Shown piece after piece: positions 12,331 through 64,000 of a DNA stretch of 64,000 nucleotides. Made by a program: the position numbers and the translations under genes. A model generated the notes under the pieces. That model worked only from the letters and a program-made list of their open reading frames with translations. It was not told the DNA's origin and searched no databases. The stretch is from Stentor roeselii (taxonomy: Eukaryota > Ciliophora > Heterotrichea > Heterotrichida > Stentoridae). Position 1 is the first letter of the stretch. The number at the start of each line of letters is the position of its first letter. Where the stretch lies: contig RSEH01000154.1 in the NCBI GenBank assembly GCA_006503475.1, positions 50,258 through 114,257 on the forward strand. Reading direction: 5' to 3'.

Positions 12331-14324
12331 ATGATGAAAATGATGTCAAAAAATCGATTATTCAGATGCATTTGTCAAATTAACGACATAAATTCTTCTC
12401 AAATAAGAGCTCATATAAAAATACCTAAAAATCATAGAATCACTCTAATTAAACCTGAAAAAACCAAAAAAGAAATCAAAAATGTGCAAATTTACTTAAG
12501 AATCATATTTTTAAAGTCTTCAAATCCTCGAATACAACAAACAAACAACCAATTAATTTCAAATCTTTCAAAAAATTTACTTTCATTAATTCAAGAATTT
12601 CACAATCATTCAAACTCCCATGAATCTTTAATTTCAACTTCTAAGCCAAACCTAATCATTCCAAAAAATTCAAAGAACACCAAATTTTTAATCCAATTCT
12701 ACAATCAAAATTTATTCAAAGAAACTTCAAATTTTAAATACCTCAAACACAGAACTCATCAAGGAATGAACCAATTTTTAATATCTCATATCACTGGAAT
12801 AGAAAAAATTTCAATAGAAGAAAATTTGAAAGTTTTGGTCACTGGAGGCTGGGATTGAAGTATCAGAATTTTTAACCTTGAGAGTCTTTCACAAATTTCT
12901 TGCTTTTGGTTCCATGAATCATGTGTCAGATCAATCGATATAAAATCAAATCTTTGTATAACCGGTTCAGATGATTCAAAAATTTATTTGATCAATCTTA
13001 AAACAAAAAAACTTAAAACTTGCTTTAAAGGGGAACATACACAAATTTATCATTTGATGTTATCTGGGAACTCAGAGTTATTCTTGAGTGCATCTTTCGA
13101 AGGATATATCGAAATATGGTCTATTTCTCAGAAACAAATTTTAAGAGAAATGATTGCTTTTGATTCTGTTATTTTTGCAAGATTTATTCAAAATGATCAA
13201 TTCTTAATATGCTCAACTTATCAAGGATATATTCAAAAGTTCTCATTTGAACACCAGCTTCCTGTAATTAAAGAACAGTTTAAAGATGATATAAGGTGCA
13301 GTAGTTTCATTGAAGAAAACAATATTTTTTAACTGGACATCAAGATGGATGCATTCAAGTTTTAAAAAATTTGAAACTCTTCAAAACTATTCAAGCCCAT
13401 TTGAAAAGGGTATATTCAATAGACTACTGCTTAAAAAGTGACAAATTTGTTTCAGGGTCTTCTGATAAAACGGTAAAAGTTTGGAAGTTATCTTTGTTTT
13501 CACCTCTAAATGTACTTGATCATTTCAAACAAGAGATTTTGTGTGTAAAACTCTTGAATAATCAAATTTATTCAAGTGATTTAGGATATAGTATTCAGAA
13601 ATCTAATATTTTATCACCCGAAGTGATAAAAACAAAACAAAGAGAATTTGGATGTTTTTATTTCTCGATTTCAATAAAGCGTATGTTAATTGTTTATGGA
13701 ATTAAAGAAGTTTTCTTGCATAGTTTATGTTCGAACTCTGATATTTCTTCAAGGTCTTTTGATAGCTTTATCAGACATTTGGTGTTTGCAAAGGTTTTTA
13801 TTTTGTGTGGAACTGAGAATGGAATTATTTATTGTGTTGATACTCCTGGTTTAGAAATTAAGAATAAGTATATATTTGGAGTTTTTCCTATTCGATTTGT
13901 TAGAACAACTAATAATTGGCAAGTGATGGCATATTCGAGTGAAAATAAATCATTTTTGAGAAAATTAACCAACTCAGAATTGCTAATTACTCACAATAAA
14001 CCTATTAAAGTTGGAAAGTTTCGAGAAAATAATTTTGTATTTGTGGATTATGGAAATGATTTGTATGTTTCAAGTGACTTTAGAACAATCAGAAAAATTG
14101 GTAGGATTTATTGTTTTCAATTTTTTTGGTGTAGATCTATTGATTACATTCTTTTGAAACATCAGTATGAAGGTTTTTCGATCATAAATACGAGAACAGG
14201 AGAAGAAAACAAAATTGAAAGCTTGAAAGGACTAAAGTATTTGAAGAGGAAAAAAGATTTGAATTTGAGTAGACAAGTTTTGATTTTATCATCTCTTAAA
14301 TTTAGATATGGCCATTTAAACTAA
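12331..14324 (+). pseudogene. WD40-repeat gene with one in-frame TGA and one frameshift
   Basis: An ATG at 12331 opens ~663 codons of coding-like sequence, broken twice. At 12856-12858 a TGA interrupts a WD40 motif (TGGWD*SIRIF), where the family usually has Lys, Arg or Gly; AGA, CGA or GGA could have become TGA by one change. At ~13318-13325 one T appears to be missing from a T run (frame needed: FLTGHQDGCIQ). Beyond it the frame continues with WD40 repeats (SGSSDKTVKVWKL) to TAA at 14322-14324. The first ~165 residues have no recognised domain. No 15-nt intron repairs either break. It is either a young pseudogene, a gene with assembly errors, or a recoded gene; the high residual quality leaves this open. 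Confidence 0.7.
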
Positions 14325-14944: not shown

Positions 14945-16282
14945 TCAGTTCTGATTTGAACAGAACCTAGGAATAGAATCTTTTATCCCAAATTTTTTGT
15001 TAAAGATGAAAAGAATAGCAAACATTAACAAAAGATAAACTACCGAAGCAAAAGTAATACCACCAAAGAATAATTTGCTTGAATTCAGTTTTGTAACATT
15101 ATCATTACTAAAATAAATAAAAATCCCTGAAACAGCAAAAGAGAAAAAACTAAAAACTGTTACGATTATAATCAATAACAGAATAGCTTTTAATGTTTCA
15201 ACCTGAATTTTGCTCTTAAAAATCAAGAAAAAAGTAAGAAAAATAATCTGAAGGTATCCAAATGCGACATGTGAACTCATCCAAATCATTTCATTCATAC
15301 TCAGATCTCCATTCTCAATCACATTGATAGAGTAAAGGTTCTAAATATTCTTTACCAGGAAGAAAAAGAAAAAAAGGTTCATAAAGATCATGGTCCAAAA
15401 AAAATTCAAGACCATTTTATAATCACGACCATTTTCTGAACTATTAACGAAATATTTGTAAAGTTTATACGATACAAATAATAAAAATGTCAAACCAAAT
15501 GCCAACAAGATGAAAAAAGTGATGATGTAAAGTGAATTACTGCCTAAGTAAAACTTACTTTCACAGGTATTTGAAAATAAAAAGTAATAAACTCCAATCA
15601 TTCCGATCACTGTTAAAATTAATAAAGATTCATATGAAAGCCATTTGAAAATCATTTTGCATTTATGAGTTTTATGTCTCTTGTTGGAAGACATTGACAT
15701 GTAAATTGTGAATATCGAGACTGAGGGAATCAGAAGCAAGGCAACGAAGATAATCAGCCATCGTCTGAATAATCATTACCTTAAAAGACGGCATTCATCT
15801 TGCTTAGCGGAATAATAAAGGAAGAGCCCAGCCTGAATAACCATTACTGCAGCTAAACTGAAAATTAAAACTGATAGAATTAATGCATATCCATAAGGCT
15901 TTATCAATTCAGGATCATTTTCTATGCTTTGAAGCAATATATTTGTTTTAGCTGAGATATCCCCATCTTCCATAAAATTATTATACAATTCTTTAGTTTC
16001 TTCATCAGTTAGTTGTCTACCAAGATCTTTGTTTTCTCCCACACAATCAATGCAAATAATTTCTTGGTCTTGATTTTTTGTGCTAGGATATTTGATTTTT
16101 TTGCAGTATTTACAATTTAAATTTTTACTTTCACATTTTGGGCATTTATTTTGGAAGGAATTACCAATTTTATTTTCACAGTCTTGACAATATTGGTGAC
16201 GATAGCACTGATATAAATGCCTACATGAGTATGAGGGGGTTTCTTGACACAACGAGCATATAGACTGTCTCGATCCTATATT
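14945..16282 (-). CDS. RING-like zinc protein with about seven TM segments; start codon not found
   Basis: Three exons joined by 15-nt introns at 15765-15779 (gtaatgattattcag, phase 2) and 15341-15355 (gtaaagaatatttag, phase 0) give ~435 codons. The N-terminus has a RING-like Cys/His set (CSLCQETPSYSCRHLYQCYR, HQYCQDC, CPKCES) and a second Cys cluster (CKYCKK.., CIDC). One TM then precedes intron 1, and about six more follow in exons 2 and 3. No ATG precedes the RING in frame: upstream stops TAA TAA occur at ~16283-16288, and the only nearby GT..AG pair is 14 nt (16276-16289). The true start may lie in an upstream exon, or the 5' end may be lost. Stop is TGA. Likely a membrane protein of the ubiquitin system; substrate unknown. 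Confidence 0.68.
15341..15355 (-). other. 15-nt mini-intron
   Basis: Sense gtaaagaatatttag, A at position 10. Joins ..FL to NLYSINV.. in the RING/TM protein. Confidence 0.85.
15765..15779 (-). other. 15-nt mini-intron
   Basis: Sense gtaatgattattcag, A at position 10, phase 2. Joins ..CRLL to RRWLIIF.. and links two TM-rich frames. Confidence 0.85.
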
Positions 16283-17425: not shown

Positions 17426-17546
17426 GATGAATATAGATTGAGTTGGGAATCAAGAGAATAAAGATTGATTAAAAGTTTAGAATCATTTTAGGAAAAGGTA
17501 GAAAATTGAATTATTGGCCTTTTATCGATAGATTCAGTTAAATAGT
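17426..17546. other. Spacer upstream of the ZZ gene
   Basis: AT-rich, no gene; leads into the TAACACCCT minisatellite. Confidence 0.4.
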
Positions 17547-17820
17547 TAACACCCTGAAGGTAAATTTTTTATAATTAACACCCTGAGGGTAAATGTTGTA
17601 GAATTAACACCCTAAAGGTAAATATTGTATTTTTAACACCTTGAAGGTAAATGTTAAATTTTTTAACAACTAAAGGTAAATGCTTTATTTTTTAACACCT
17701 TGAGGTAGATGTTGTATTTTTTTAACACCCTGAAGGTAAATGTTTTCTTTTTAACACCCCGAAGGCAAATATTGTATTTTTTAACACCCTAAAGATAAAT
17801 ATTGTATTTTTAACACCCAG
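17547..17820 (+). repeat. 29-30 bp minisatellite with telomere-like core TAACACCCT
   Basis: Nine full copies and a partial tenth of a unit of the form TAACACCCTgaaggtaaatgttgtattt. Seven of the cores match TAACACCC, the permuted telomere unit of this chromosome (CCCTAACA), with flanking T making TAACACCCT; the others differ by one or two bases. The rest of the unit is unrelated to telomere sequence. It lies between two minus-strand genes, ~46 kb inside the chromosome end. Confidence 0.9.
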
Positions 17821-17897
17821 TGATACCAGTTCTTCATAATTCAAATAATCATTAAACCTTTCGAAGCTAAACCTTCACAATCTGAATTTCCTTATTA

Positions 17898-18422
17898 TTA
17901 AAACCTTCTCTTACTATCAATACAAAAAACATCTCTAGGAAATCTTCCATCCTTTCGACTAGGAGTAACTTCAGGTCTAAAAGTAATCAAATCCTCCTGA
18001 ATCCTTTTCCCATGATTCAAAAAAGAGGTATTAACCGGAACATTTCCCAGTCGAATCTTAGGAACCATGACCTTCTCCTGATTATTCTGCCTTCCTTCAA
18101 AACCACCCAAAGCTCTCTCTAATTTCCCTTCACTTCCTCTACAAAGCGACTTATGCCTAGGAGCCTCCTGAGACCTATCAACCCTTCCCACCTCATCATT
18201 TCTATTCTCTTTGTTAGGGTTCGCCTTAGGAATATGAAAAACTCTTCTAAAGTTGCATCGAACACTTTCACTTCTTGTCTGTTTCTTCACTGGAGTCACT
18301 TGAATTTTCTTTGCTTTGATTATTTCAGTTCCATGCTTTGTCATTTGAAACTCAGGGACTTTGATATGACTAATTCGAATTTTTTGACTGAAAATTTTAG
18401 GAACTTGAAGATTCGGGTTCAT
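17898..18422 (-). CDS. Small basic protein of unknown function
   Basis: 174 residues, ATG at 18420-18422. Rich in Lys/Arg with scattered Pro, no hydrophobic segment and no recognised domain. The C-terminal 40 residues (NHGKRIQEDLITFRPEVTPS.., FPRDVF) look the most ordered. It is divergent from the next gene, with only 46 bases between the two start codons, so they probably share a promoter region. Confidence 0.62.
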   Translation of the reverse strand: MNPNLQVPKIFSQKIRISHIKVPEFQMTKHGTEIIKAKKIQVTPVKKQTRSESVRCNFRRVFHIPKANPNKENRNDEVGRVDRSQEAPRHKSLCRGSEGKLERALGGFEGRQNNQEKVMVPKIRLGNVPVNTSFLNHGKRIQEDLITFRPEVTPSRKDGRFPRDVFCIDSKRRF

Positions 18423-19424: not shown

Positions 19425-21116
19425 CTAATTATTCCCAACAGAATTCAAAGCCTCTTCAATAAGTTCCCTAATTTCAATTTCACTAGGAAAATAATTAAAT
19501 TTCGGAAAAAGTGCAGACTTACTCATCCTAAAGCTAGTTCGATAATTAGCTCCAATAGAATAAGCAGCAAGATAAACTTTAACCTTCTTCGCATGAAACT
19601 GATTACACTGAGCAAGATACTTTTTAATAACAGGATCCCTATACTTAGAGCTAATTTTAGTATAAGGGTTATTCTTCGCTTTTGCATGTTCCATGATAAC
19701 CTTAGACAATACCTGATTCCAGATCTTCACAATACCCAAAAATCGATTCCTGTTCTTTTTCAGAAACTTTTTAACTTGTGTCTGAACCAGCAAAAGTCTC
19801 TTAAAAAATAAATCAAAACTCTTCTTGGCCTTACAATTCAAATAATTCATCCTCAAAAATCCAACAAATACCTTTCCAGCCTTTTTCTTCTCAACAGAAA
19901 ACAAATTCGCATGAGCTAAAAAAAGACTATTTCTTCCATTCAACAAGGAAATCTGAATAGGTCCCAAATGATTTATTTTAAACTGAAAATAATGTTGCAA
20001 GGTACGAGCGGCGAATTTCGCTTTTAAAGCATTGAATCTTTTTTCTTTCTTTGAACTGATCAAAGCTCTTATTGACTCTAGAGACTTGGCAAAGGTTGTA
20101 AGGATTAAAAATGACTTTTGACAGGTTTCGACTTTTTCTTTAATTCGATTTGAGGCGATTTCGTGTTTGACTTTCTCGATTTTTTTAAGTTTTCGGTTTA
20201 GAAGGTCGCGAGTTTTGCAGGCTTTTTCTTGAATCAGAAGATTTTTCTTGAAAATCGCGTTTTTTTGCTTTTCTTGCCAGTTTGGGTCTTTTGAATGACT
20301 TGCTGTTGGTGATTTGTTGAGGGTGACGAAATTTTTGTTTTTTCCGAGTTGTAAAGCTTGTTGTTTTCGCTTTTTTATGATGTTTTCAACTCGTTTTTCT
20401 AAGTCACTGCGAAAATCAACGTCTTTTAGTGATTCCAGCTCGTTTTGAAGCCTTTTGCTTGAAAAAAGGTCGTCAGCAGGAAGATGAGATTTTCCGAAAG
20501 TAGTGAAAATTGAGAACTGGGTGTCTTCAACAGCGAAAACTGAAAGATAATAAAAATCTCTTTGAAACCAGCTGGTTTTTTCACTGATTTCGTAGAAATC
20601 ACTAGAAAAACTAACGTCAAACCTGGAAAAATCAGGTTTTTCGACTGTTTTCGATAAAAAACACTTGAAGTTTCCGAAGTTTTTCTTAAAGTAAATGCAA
20701 AGTGGGGATTTTTTTCCTTTACAAGGAATAAGGAAATAAGTAAAAAAGTCTTCTTTTAACTCATTCGCATGAATCACTCCGTCTTTCAAAGTTTTTACTT
20801 TTGAAATGTCTGGACCTTCTGATATTTTATTCAACTTTTCAACCAGTCCTCGAAAGTCAGGAAAAGAAGTGTCTTCGAATCGAGGACTGGCCACTGAAGA
20901 CCCTGGACTTGAAAAGATCTTGTTTGTGATTTCTTGAGTTCTGTTATTTTCGATGACTGAAAATTTACTGATTCTTGATGAGTCTTTTGACTGTGATTTT
21001 AATGATTTTACGGAATGGTTCAAACTTTCAGGAGAAATGGTTTTTAAGGGTAGAATCGGGAGGCTTTTAAAGGTTGAAACTGTTCCTCGTTGTTTAAGGT
21101 CGGAGTATTTGTTCAT
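19425..21116 (-). CDS. Large basic helical protein of unknown function
   Basis: 563 residues, ATG at 21114-21116. Ser-rich, disordered N-terminus (~1-75). A middle part (~90-210) has mixed beta-like segments and ends in a DDLF element. A strongly basic helix-rich part (~230-560) contains possible coiled coil (KHEIASNRIKEKVET) and an IQ-like helix (FAARTLQHYFQFKINH). No domain recognised. The size and helix content suggest a structural or centrosomal/cortical protein, but this is only a guess. Confidence 0.7.
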   Translation of the reverse strand: MNKYSDLKQRGTVSTFKSLPILPLKTISPESLNHSVKSLKSQSKDSSRISKFSVIENNRTQEITNKIFSSPGSSVASPRFEDTSFPDFRGLVEKLNKISEGPDISKVKTLKDGVIHANELKEDFFTYFLIPCKGKKSPLCIYFKKNFGNFKCFLSKTVEKPDFSRFDVSFSSDFYEISEKTSWFQRDFYYLSVFAVEDTQFSIFTTFGKSHLPADDLFSSKRLQNELESLKDVDFRSDLEKRVENIIKKRKQQALQLGKNKNFVTLNKSPTASHSKDPNWQEKQKNAIFKKNLLIQEKACKTRDLLNRKLKKIEKVKHEIASNRIKEKVETCQKSFLILTTFAKSLESIRALISSKKEKRFNALKAKFAARTLQHYFQFKINHLGPIQISLLNGRNSLFLAHANLFSVEKKKAGKVFVGFLRMNYLNCKAKKSFDLFFKRLLLVQTQVKKFLKKNRNRFLGIVKIWNQVLSKVIMEHAKAKNNPYTKISSKYRDPVIKKYLAQCNQFHAKKVKVYLAAYSIGANYRTSFRMSKSALFPKFNYFPSEIEIRELIEEALNSVGNN

Positions 21117-21187
21117 ATTTAGAAGTAGTTTTTTTGTGATAATGAAAAGTTGGGAGTTTCGACTTTAAAGATATTTCTATATCAGCC

Positions 21188-21410
21188 TTGACCTCTTTTT
21201 CATCTCATCTAAATTCATATCAAAGAAGTATCCTACAATCACCCTTAACCTCTTTTCCATCTCATCTAAATTCATATCAAAGAAATACCCTAAAATCACC
21301 CTTAACATCTTTCCATCTCATCTAAATTCATATCAAATAATTATCCTACAATCACCCTTAATCTCTTTCCATCTAATCTAAATTCATATCAAATAATTAT
21401 CCAAATCAAT
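21188..21410. repeat. ~57-bp tandem repeat, four copies
   Basis: Units built on CTCATCTAAATTCATATCAA followed by an A/T-rich half and caatcacccttaa. They lie between the DPH5 3' end and the start of the unknown 563-residue gene, so they occupy its upstream region. Copies diverge by a few bases each. Confidence 0.85.
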
Positions 21411-61735: not shown

Positions 61736-63947
61736 CCTTGCTTAGCCTTTTGGCCTGATGTAACTTTGCTTTTTTAGAAAGGATTTAGATATTTCATGAG
61801 AAATTTAAGTTAAAATGATAAAATAATAATAGTTTATATAAAATCTTTGAAAGTAAATTTTTTTCTAAATTAGTAGAAAGTCTAATAATTACAAACAAAG
61901 AATCTATCACTTGCTCACAACACAATTACAATCTTTACCAAAAATTCAGATTCTTATTTCAAGTATAAACATTGAAGAAAGAATAATTTTGTGAAAAATT
62001 CAGGTTTTTTCAATATAATAAGAAAGCTTCAAGTCTTAACAACAACTTAATAAAAGCCAGATATTATTTAGCTCATTTCAATAACGATGCGCTTTAATGT
62101 TGGCTGGTGTATCCAAGTTGCTTAACAACAACTTAATAAAAGCCAGATATTATTTAGCTCATTTCAATAACGATGCGCTTTAATGTTGGCTGGTGGTATC
62201 CAAGTTGCCTAACTATAATTAAAAGCTAAAATATCGAATCTCAATCAATAAATATAATCTTACTTTTTAATGATCAAATGGTCGAATCTTTTCATATATA
62301 AAAGCTCAAATACATAATGTTGTTTTAATCTTTGAAGAATATCAAAACTTATTATGATTTTGATTGATGCTCAGTTTAATCTGGTCTCTGGAATGGGTTC
62401 CAGATGAGATCTAAAAAATATTTAAAACAGGTTTTAAAAGACCTTACCCGAAATAAGTTCCCATTTAATTTAAGGCTTGTTGTATTAAAAGAATATTCAT
62501 TGTCTCAATTTAAAAGTTCTAATTAAAATTCATCTTAATCCTTATATTGGGTAAAAAACCAGAAGAGGACTTTAAAGTTAAATAAATGAATTTTTCACTC
62601 TGAGTCATAATGAAGATTTTTCAAGTTTTCGCTCTTTTATTAAATAAATTAAACTAAGCTTATTTAACTGAAATTAATGATTTACCCTGCTAATTAAAAC
62701 ATCTGATATTTATTTTGCATTTGTCTTTATTGAATACATCCAGATTATTTACAATTTCACAAAAAAATTAATTATTATTATTGCATTCAAATACAAACCA
62801 ACTTATCCTTGAATTCGGCAAGAAACCCTTCATTGCTAGAAGATTTAAGATAATATAGTTTTTTATCATATAAAGAAAGAATCGGTTCTTAATACTGATT
62901 TAGTTAATATTTGGAGTTAGTTAATATGAAAATAGTAATTTCCGTAATAAAGAAGTTTCATCTATTTCTTCTTTTCAACCTTAAAATAATAAATTTAACT
63001 TTGATTATAAAATCAATTCAAGGCTGATTCTTAATTAAAATTATTCTTGGATAATTAGAGCATATTTTATATTAAAGTAGATTATATACATTTGCTGATT
63101 ATAAAAAATGATCCAATTTCATAGACTGAGGCAAGACTAGTGATTATGTTTGGCTTTGAGTAATACAATGTAAATAATTTTTCACTGTGTAATATTTATG
63201 ATATTAAATTATCAAAAACACGTAAATACATTCCATTAAAGTCAATATCTCAAAAAATTTATATTATCTATTGTGCACTCGTGATGCATTTATTAAATAA
63301 ATCTATTATAAGAGTTACTAAAATCTGGAATACCACTTTCTTACCTGCAAGAAACTATCAATACCATGAGTTAAAAATCTTCTATAATCTGTTTAGGTAT
63401 ATTTTATATTTTCAATTGTAGTGAAATTCAACCAGATGAGACATACCTTGATAAATTTGAAGTCAAGTTAAGAGGAAAAGAAAGTAAAAAAAATAAGATC
63501 CCCTTATTTTTATGACTAAGGAAAAATTATATGTTCTAAATTTAAAGTTTTATTAAGACTTAAAATTAGAAGGGCAATAAACTTTTAACGAAGATTTGAG
63601 AAATGGTTAAAGAGCTCAGAAACTATTAAGCTACAATCAAGGAATTACAATTTGATTTTATCTAGTATTGTGTAAAGTATATATGTAAATATTCTTGAAA
63701 TTAGACAAAACTATTATTAAAGCGTATTAACTTAGAAAAAAAGTGTATAATTATTATGAAGATCCTTTAAAAAATTATCTTCCTAAATAATAATGAATTT
63801 TTCGTTCACTTATTTAAGTGAAATTTTAATGACTTTGTAAGTGTACTCAGTTAAAAAACCAGAAAACCGTTATTTAATATAAATTAAATGATCAAGTTTA
63901 ATTGCGTTTAAAAAAATCTCCTTTATATATCAAGAATGTTACAAAAC
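61736..63947. other. Subtelomeric AT-rich DNA
   Basis: Apart from the 86-bp tandem duplication there is no intact gene. Short protein-like stretches around 62355-62400 and 63320-63700 have too many stops to assign. Confidence 0.55.
62036..62208. repeat. 86-bp tandem duplication
   Basis: Two copies starting at 62036 and 62122, beginning ttaacaacaacttaataaaa and ending caagttgc. They differ by essentially one G insertion (ggctggtgtatcc against ggctggtggtatcc). Each has short inverted pairs (agccag/ttggct and caagttg/caactt), allowing small hairpins. Confidence 0.92.
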
Positions 63948-64000
63948 GTTAGGGTGTTAGGGTGTTAGGGTGTTAGGGTGTTAGGGTGTTAGGGTGTTAG
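63948..64000 (+). repeat. Telomere repeat array (GTTAGGGT)n, chromosome end
   Basis: Uninterrupted 8-bp units to the last base of the window (about 6.6 copies), i.e. CCCTAACA on the minus strand. The junction acaaaac|gttaggg is abrupt. G-rich strand runs 5'->3' toward the end, as expected for a right-hand telomere. Confidence 0.97.

Follow-up and report, generated by a model that had tools for sequence, protein, structure and literature searches.

We observed a minisatellite in which most repeating units carry one whole telomere unit as their core, and this core recurs across the genome with varied spacers, in a register that one alternative rotation does not share, and at interior, mostly non-coding positions. 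Several dozen separate cases, this array among them, are present in a genome of 44.39 Mb in 522 contigs; together they form a class of interstitial telomeric minisatellite that recurs and is largely locked in register. The best account of them, to which we assign a probability of roughly 0.6, is that short interstitial telomere motifs were amplified with flanking DNA; the array itself probably has no job of its own.

The array and its surroundings

The array lies in a window of 64,000 nucleotides, i.e. the whole stretch of DNA that was analysed (bases 50258-114257 of contig C64), at a distance of 46 kb from the nearer contig end. Tandem Repeats Finder reported it with a period of 29, 9.3 copies, 79% matches and a score of 298, and with an alternative period of 59 and a score of 332. 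Splitting the array at TTAACA[A/C]C gave ten unit starts; nine of these begin complete units, each 29 or 30 bases long, and the tenth runs on into unique sequence. The exact octamer TAACACCC is present at 7/10 starts (17547, 17576, 17605, 17723, 17752, 17782 and 17811), and the remaining three cores differ from it by 1-2 changes. Because the telomere at the end of the window reads (GTTAGGGT)n, TAACACCC is a rotation of the repeat CCCTAACA; the core is one whole 8-base telomere unit, with the G-strand form GGGTGTTA. Thus, the tandem array of 29-30 bp units with a telomere-rotation core that the first-pass annotation had described is confirmed by Tandem Repeats Finder and by the octamer positions. 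The same annotation took the other ~20 bases of the unit (GAAGGTAAATGTTGTATTT) to be non-telomeric, and this holds save for 2/9 units in which the telomere match reaches 11 bases, TAACACCCTAA.

With head-to-tail units in the range of roughly 10-60 bases, the array is a minisatellite, and with a telomere repeat at a non-terminal place it is also an interstitial telomeric sequence. It shares with telo boxes the single telomere unit, of which there is one per 29-30 bases; contiguous telomere units are absent from the window array and occur at sister places, e.g. C213 and C356. The features of the locus are collected in Table 1. The array is faced by the 5' end of the ZZ-type zinc-finger gene and by the 3' end of the 174-aa ORF. 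A genome search with the gap and the array returned the self-match only (1 match, E up to 0.001), i.e. no second copy, and nothing in the window reached the Rfam gathering threshold.

Table 1. Positions in the window of the array, its parts and its neighbours
Feature	Position	Strand	Remarks
Left neighbour, ZZ-type zinc-finger protein, 279 aa	16586..17425	-	PF00569, E 7.9e-09
Predicted non-coding gap holding the array	17450..17900	.	27% G+C; codon-score segmentation
Minisatellite	17546..17818	+	period 29-30, 9 full units + partial; consensus TTAACACCCTGAAGGTAAATGTTGTATTT
Exact telomere-unit core TAACACCC, first copy	17547..17554	+	
Three degenerate cores (TAACACCT, TAACAACT, TAACACCT)	17634..17700	+	
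Right neighbour, predicted ORF, 174 aa	17898..18422	-	without Pfam match
Terminal telomere tract (GTTAGGGT)n, same contig	63948..64000	+	reference for the core

Two further repeats were observed in the window. A second minisatellite at 21181-21402 (56-base unit, 3.9 copies) occupies the gap 5' of ORF 19425-21116 (minus strand), and its unit holds ATCACCCTTAACC, which is loosely telomere-like. At 62035-62213, about 1.7 kb from the telomere tract, there is an 86-base duplication with a 97% match.

The telomere repeat CCCTAACA is that reported for the heterotrich Blepharisma stoltei in the excerpted text of PMC9942806. Because TGA is nearly missing from long ORFs, the genome probably uses the standard code; in this respect it differs from B. 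stoltei, in which UGA = tryptophan according to the same excerpts (PMC9942806). A WD40-like ORF at 12331-13332 is broken by a single TGA after ...TGGWD, and this TGA could mark a tiny intron, result from an assembly error or be read through. On the minus strand, at about 15765-15779, a 15-base GT..AG segment lies within a coding stretch and fits the 15-16 base introns of B. stoltei, as given in part of PMC9942806.

Spaced telomere units across the genome

We searched the whole genome for three GGGTGTTA units, each without a following G and with gaps of 5-34 bases, and obtained 55 matches at 18 places. By contrast, seven control patterns, i.e. the reversed telomere pattern, two same-composition octamers and their reversals, and the rotation ACCCTAAC and its reversal, gave 0 matches each genome-wide. 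Three-unit arrays of the rotated telomere word ACCCTAAC, the one alternative rotation that the register control covers, are absent genome-wide. Spaced pairs gave 108 matches versus 0 in the control, and there were at least 36 separate places among the 100 matches listed. For an octamer with four G/C, the number of three-copy places expected genome-wide, as extrapolated from 94 kb, is about 1.0, and this expectation falls to about 0.5 once telomere words and the window array are excluded. In total, three-unit clustering exceeds chance, and the core is special genome-wide. Minisatellites are common here, with 14 separate non-terminal tandem arrays in the window according to Tandem Repeats Finder (the array under study included), and one of them might simply happen to contain the telomere-unit octamer; against the 18 places and the empty controls, however, such a coincidence is very improbable.

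Among the three-unit places, 17/18 lie mainly in predicted gaps. The sole place inside an ORF, C45, was rejected as a non-coding array: its repeat sits inside the ORF, which has a 7-residue repeat. The median distance of the three-unit places to the contig end was 32 kb, compared with a random expectation (quarter-length) of 28.5 kb, and C357 was the only one of the 18 located at a contig end. Thus, a link between such arrays and chromosome ends, as raised in the first-pass annotation, was not borne out by distance, and the places do not gather at contig ends. The starts of contigs C357 (65-149) and C174 (66-117) resemble each other in sequence and both carry clusters of telomere units, which lie on one strand in the first contig and on the other strand in the second; these starts possibly reflect an assembly break at such an array.

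Single copies of the octamer behave differently from clustered ones. TAACACCC without a preceding C (D+TAACACCC) occurs 2480 times genome-wide versus 387 times for the reversed word, which is a poor control for single copies; for the shifted words, the corresponding counts were 1139 versus 482 (VAACACCCTV) and 1106 versus 218 (DTAACACCCV). A predicted coding location was found for 13/15 sampled single copies, which were drawn from the first 23 listed with eight passed over, and for 4/4 copies in the window outside the array, where the predicted non-coding share is 29%. Accordingly, no excess of single copies in gaps was found in this small sample (15 copies plus 4 in the window). Because the sampled sites are mainly in predicted coding sequence, codon use explains most single copies, and TAACACCC was rejected as a dispersed genome-wide motif. 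We conclude that the oddity is the clustering between genes and not the octamer itself.

Altogether, 39 places were read in detail. The orientation of units within 150 bases of each other was uniform in 36/39 places, and a single opposite unit occurs in each of the other three, C12, C104 and C232. When the units were masked and all 39 places were compared with one another for shared spacers, there was one marginal match only, between C250 and C290 (20 bases, E 0.008). Since the spacers differ from place to place, such arrays originated repeatedly around the same unit. At a given place, the spacer is often repeated along with the unit, e.g. in C12, C13, C232 and C402, with C196 and C440 as exceptions. 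Place-specific spacers that repeat with the unit, together with the uniform orientation, are expected under tandem duplication. Moreover, exact contiguous dimers of the telomere unit are present in C3, C12, C17, C27 and C232, and five-unit runs (GGGTGTTA x3, AGGTGTTA, GGGTGTTA) in C213, C229, C247 and C356. C27 was kept as non-coding, and its ORF may begin just after the dimer; the telomere words of C51 and C104b were read as protein parts and treated as coding coincidences. Short interior telomere tracts with the AGGTGTTA variant were seen in C213, C229, C247, C356, C281, C518, C77 and C148; the frequency of AGGTGTTA means little because the pair pattern favours it.

Of 195 units after which no further full unit follows, 135 have A as the next base, 35 have T, 5 have C and 20 have G, the last being the base that would continue the telomere; this count is biased for pattern-found places because the patterns required a non-G at this position. 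The dimers of C3, C12, C13, C17, C21 and C27, which were found without the non-G requirement, end at the unit boundary, and single units extend 1-2 bases further in C13, C135, C179, C290 and C391b. The register is nearly fixed, and the class is largely register-locked.

Origin of the arrays and alternative explanations

Under the amplification account, a site between genes would have received one or more complete telomere units (8 bases each, with the G strand reading GGGTGTTA), most likely because a telomerase-type activity copied its template in full lengths onto the 3' end of a break under repair. The added unit would have been sealed in and then multiplied with about 21 adjoining bases by ordinary tandem duplication, with slippage or unequal exchange as the candidate amplifiers. 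Template-defined ends would account for the fixed register. Among the origins proposed in the first-pass annotation, a telomere addition whose remnant was multiplied together with the DNA beside it is the best fit to the dozens of places, the unrelated spacers and the contiguous units. The absence of ACCCTAAC arrays counts against random-length capture, because such capture would not predict it. C91 and C391a, in which perfect cores stand beside strongly diverged spacers, count against the amplification account.

The flanks of the units bear on their source. Before the first unit of the 39 places, A was found at -1 in 30/39, C at -2 in 23/39 and CA in 18/39; by the commonest flank per place, CA and TA were equally frequent (16/39 each). 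At the real telomere junctions of 18 contig ends (10 + 8), TTA precedes the tract in 13/18 and C is present at -2 in 1/18. First-unit flanks and junctions differed with a Fisher p of 1.2e-4 for C and 1.7e-5 for TTA, and of 2.6e-4 and 4.6e-5, respectively, when four coding or doubtful places were left out. Because the flanks differ, the interstitial units are not simply present-day somatic telomere ends pasted in; the CA flank and the nearly fixed register both speak against simple capture of present telomeres, and the CA flank is left unexplained by the telomerase account. The pyrimidine-A of the first-unit flank before GGG resembles a 3' splice site (YAG) across the 39 places.

The junctions also bear on a further possibility, namely that alternative telomere addition or developmental breakage in the macronucleus is preferentially seeded by the arrays. 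Telomerase could use the core as a primer, and in B. stoltei there are 46,705 potential sites of internal telomere addition, of which, however, 38,686 were seen in one read only (excerpts of PMC9942806). Moreover, no array was found beside the 18 junctions examined, and no exact unit was present in the 54 to 113 bases before their telomere tracts; AGGTGTTA directly precedes the tract at the start of C56, which is the only one of the 18 junctions with that unit. Among the ten junctions with at least 1.5 kb of sequence, one has a single unit and none has an array. A chromosome breakage sequence would stand at a telomere addition site, and the window array is located well inside its contig. Thus, position gives no support to the chromosome-breakage-like element that had been suggested, the places being spread along contigs, and we consider a seeding function improbable.

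Another explanation holds that the arrays are clustered sites of a protein that also recognises the telomere repeat, with selection keeping the units while the spacers drift. The first-pass annotation had raised such a site and had taken a conserved core against a drifting tail to suggest selection. In the window array, the mean identity was 0.944 for core columns versus 0.857 elsewhere. Under column shuffling, however, the core at its position gave p 0.084 and the best window anywhere p 0.74, and AGGTAAAT is conserved equally to TAACACCC. Therefore, a better-conserved core is not supported for this array.

Conservation was also examined over 13 non-coding arrays of the 39 places, which were picked for alignable spacers; the first three consecutive perfect units were dropped where present, and 3 of the 13 arrays were left without free units. 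Differences amounted to 30/416 in the core versus 163/1147 elsewhere (p 1.2e-4), in counts for which the cells within one array are non-independent. Considering substitutions only, the ten arrays had 29/415 in the core versus 137/1121 in the spacer (p 0.003), and in a simple neutral simulation of these arrays the core rate was above the observed rate in 400/400 runs, i.e. 0/400 runs were as low. The excess depends on C290, without which p was 0.22. Compared with other windows of the same array, the core was outdone by most windows in C13, C402 and C254 and by none in C91, C391a and C179. Because significance is lost without C290, we do not rely on the multi-array core conservation.

A protein site might be expected to show in the position of the arrays relative to genes. 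For 34/39 places (L038, L093, L099, L111 and L112 were left out because they are coding, doubtful or located at a contig end), the gene arrangement was divergent in 14, tandem in 13 and convergent in 7, based on gene calls from a crude codon-score segmentation in which a few gaps are implausibly short. In the window, divergent gaps account for 30% of the gap bases, tandem gaps for 58% and convergent gaps for 12%, and the comparison gave a chi-square p of 0.053 (divergent p 0.19 and convergent p 0.18 singly). The departure favours divergent as well as convergent gaps and therefore indicates no preference for promoters as such; convergent gaps lack promoters and are nevertheless over-represented rather than under-represented. 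Similarly, a preference for the 5' flanks of genes, as expected of telo boxes, was not found among the 34 places. We scanned 26 neighbours of sister places and four window proteins for gene families. A Pfam match was obtained for 17/26 neighbours, two of them only below the curated cut-off; those with a match include TBP, a CCT chaperonin, a proteasome subunit, PRP39, DcpS, kinases, a Ras-type GTPase and a chitin synthase. No common functional theme was found among the 26 neighbours, which are varied and include several housekeeping genes.

In favour of a protein site, we note the nearly fixed register, the flank that the units share outside the telomere match (GGG preceded by A or T and, one base further out, by a pyrimidine), the low core substitution count and the housekeeping neighbours TBP, CCT chaperonin, proteasome subunit, PRP39 and DcpS. 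These are set against conservation that hangs on one array, the lack of a promoter bias and, in the small sample examined, of any surplus of single copies between genes. In total, the binding-site proposal of the first-pass annotation is retained at lower odds, and we regard it as unlikely. More specifically, and with still more doubt, GGGTGTTA with its pyrimidine-A flank could be the functional site of a putative telomere-repeat-binding protein, clustered between somatic genes. If so, intergenic GGGTGTTA clusters might insulate genes or prepare alternative chromosome ends, and the telomere unit would serve two jobs in one nucleus.

The preferred account, amplification of interstitial telomere motifs, and the binding-site explanation have different implications. 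Should telomerase have produced the units, past break repair would be recorded in the genome as whole template lengths, and one could use register and CA flank to ask which telomerase, and which nucleus, made the units. Should they be protein sites, they would represent a telomere-like regulatory motif in a heterotrich-like ciliate. Either way, the sister places make the question of origin testable by strain comparison.

Relation to known systems

Under the binding-site explanation, the arrays would be comparable to yeast Rap1 sites and plant telo boxes, and likewise to Tbf1 sites. Human Jeffreys-type minisatellites are unrelated arrays with one short core in common; unlike in these, the core described here equals the telomere unit of its own genome. 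In Paramecium, interstitial telomeres are reportedly recombination hot spots (the title of Katinka and Bourgain 1992), and to judge by that title the two cases share telomere repeats within ciliate macronuclear DNA. Among the listed papers on interstitial telomeres in ciliates, none describes such arrays, as far as titles and abstract openings go.

For plant telo boxes, it has been proposed that telomerase, acting non-processively, adds one unit to a free 3' end (Gaspin et al. 2010, PMC3022908, in excerpt). The places described here resemble telo boxes, as characterised in that excerpt, in that one complete telomere unit is present singly at a non-terminal site (PMC3022908). However, plant telo boxes prefer the 5' flanks of genes according to the same text (PMC3022908), whereas the units here form arrays, and no such preference was found for them.

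Mammalian interstitial telomeres have been explained by insertion during the repair of breaks (PMC7215372, in the sections available). As in the short interstitial telomeric sequences treated there, telomere-identical internal units are found here within unrelated flanks (PMC7215372). They differ from the mammalian sequences, as those sections present them, in that they often consist of single whole units in spaced arrays, in a near-fixed register, and in that the first unit is often flanked by CA and not by in-register bases (PMC7215372).
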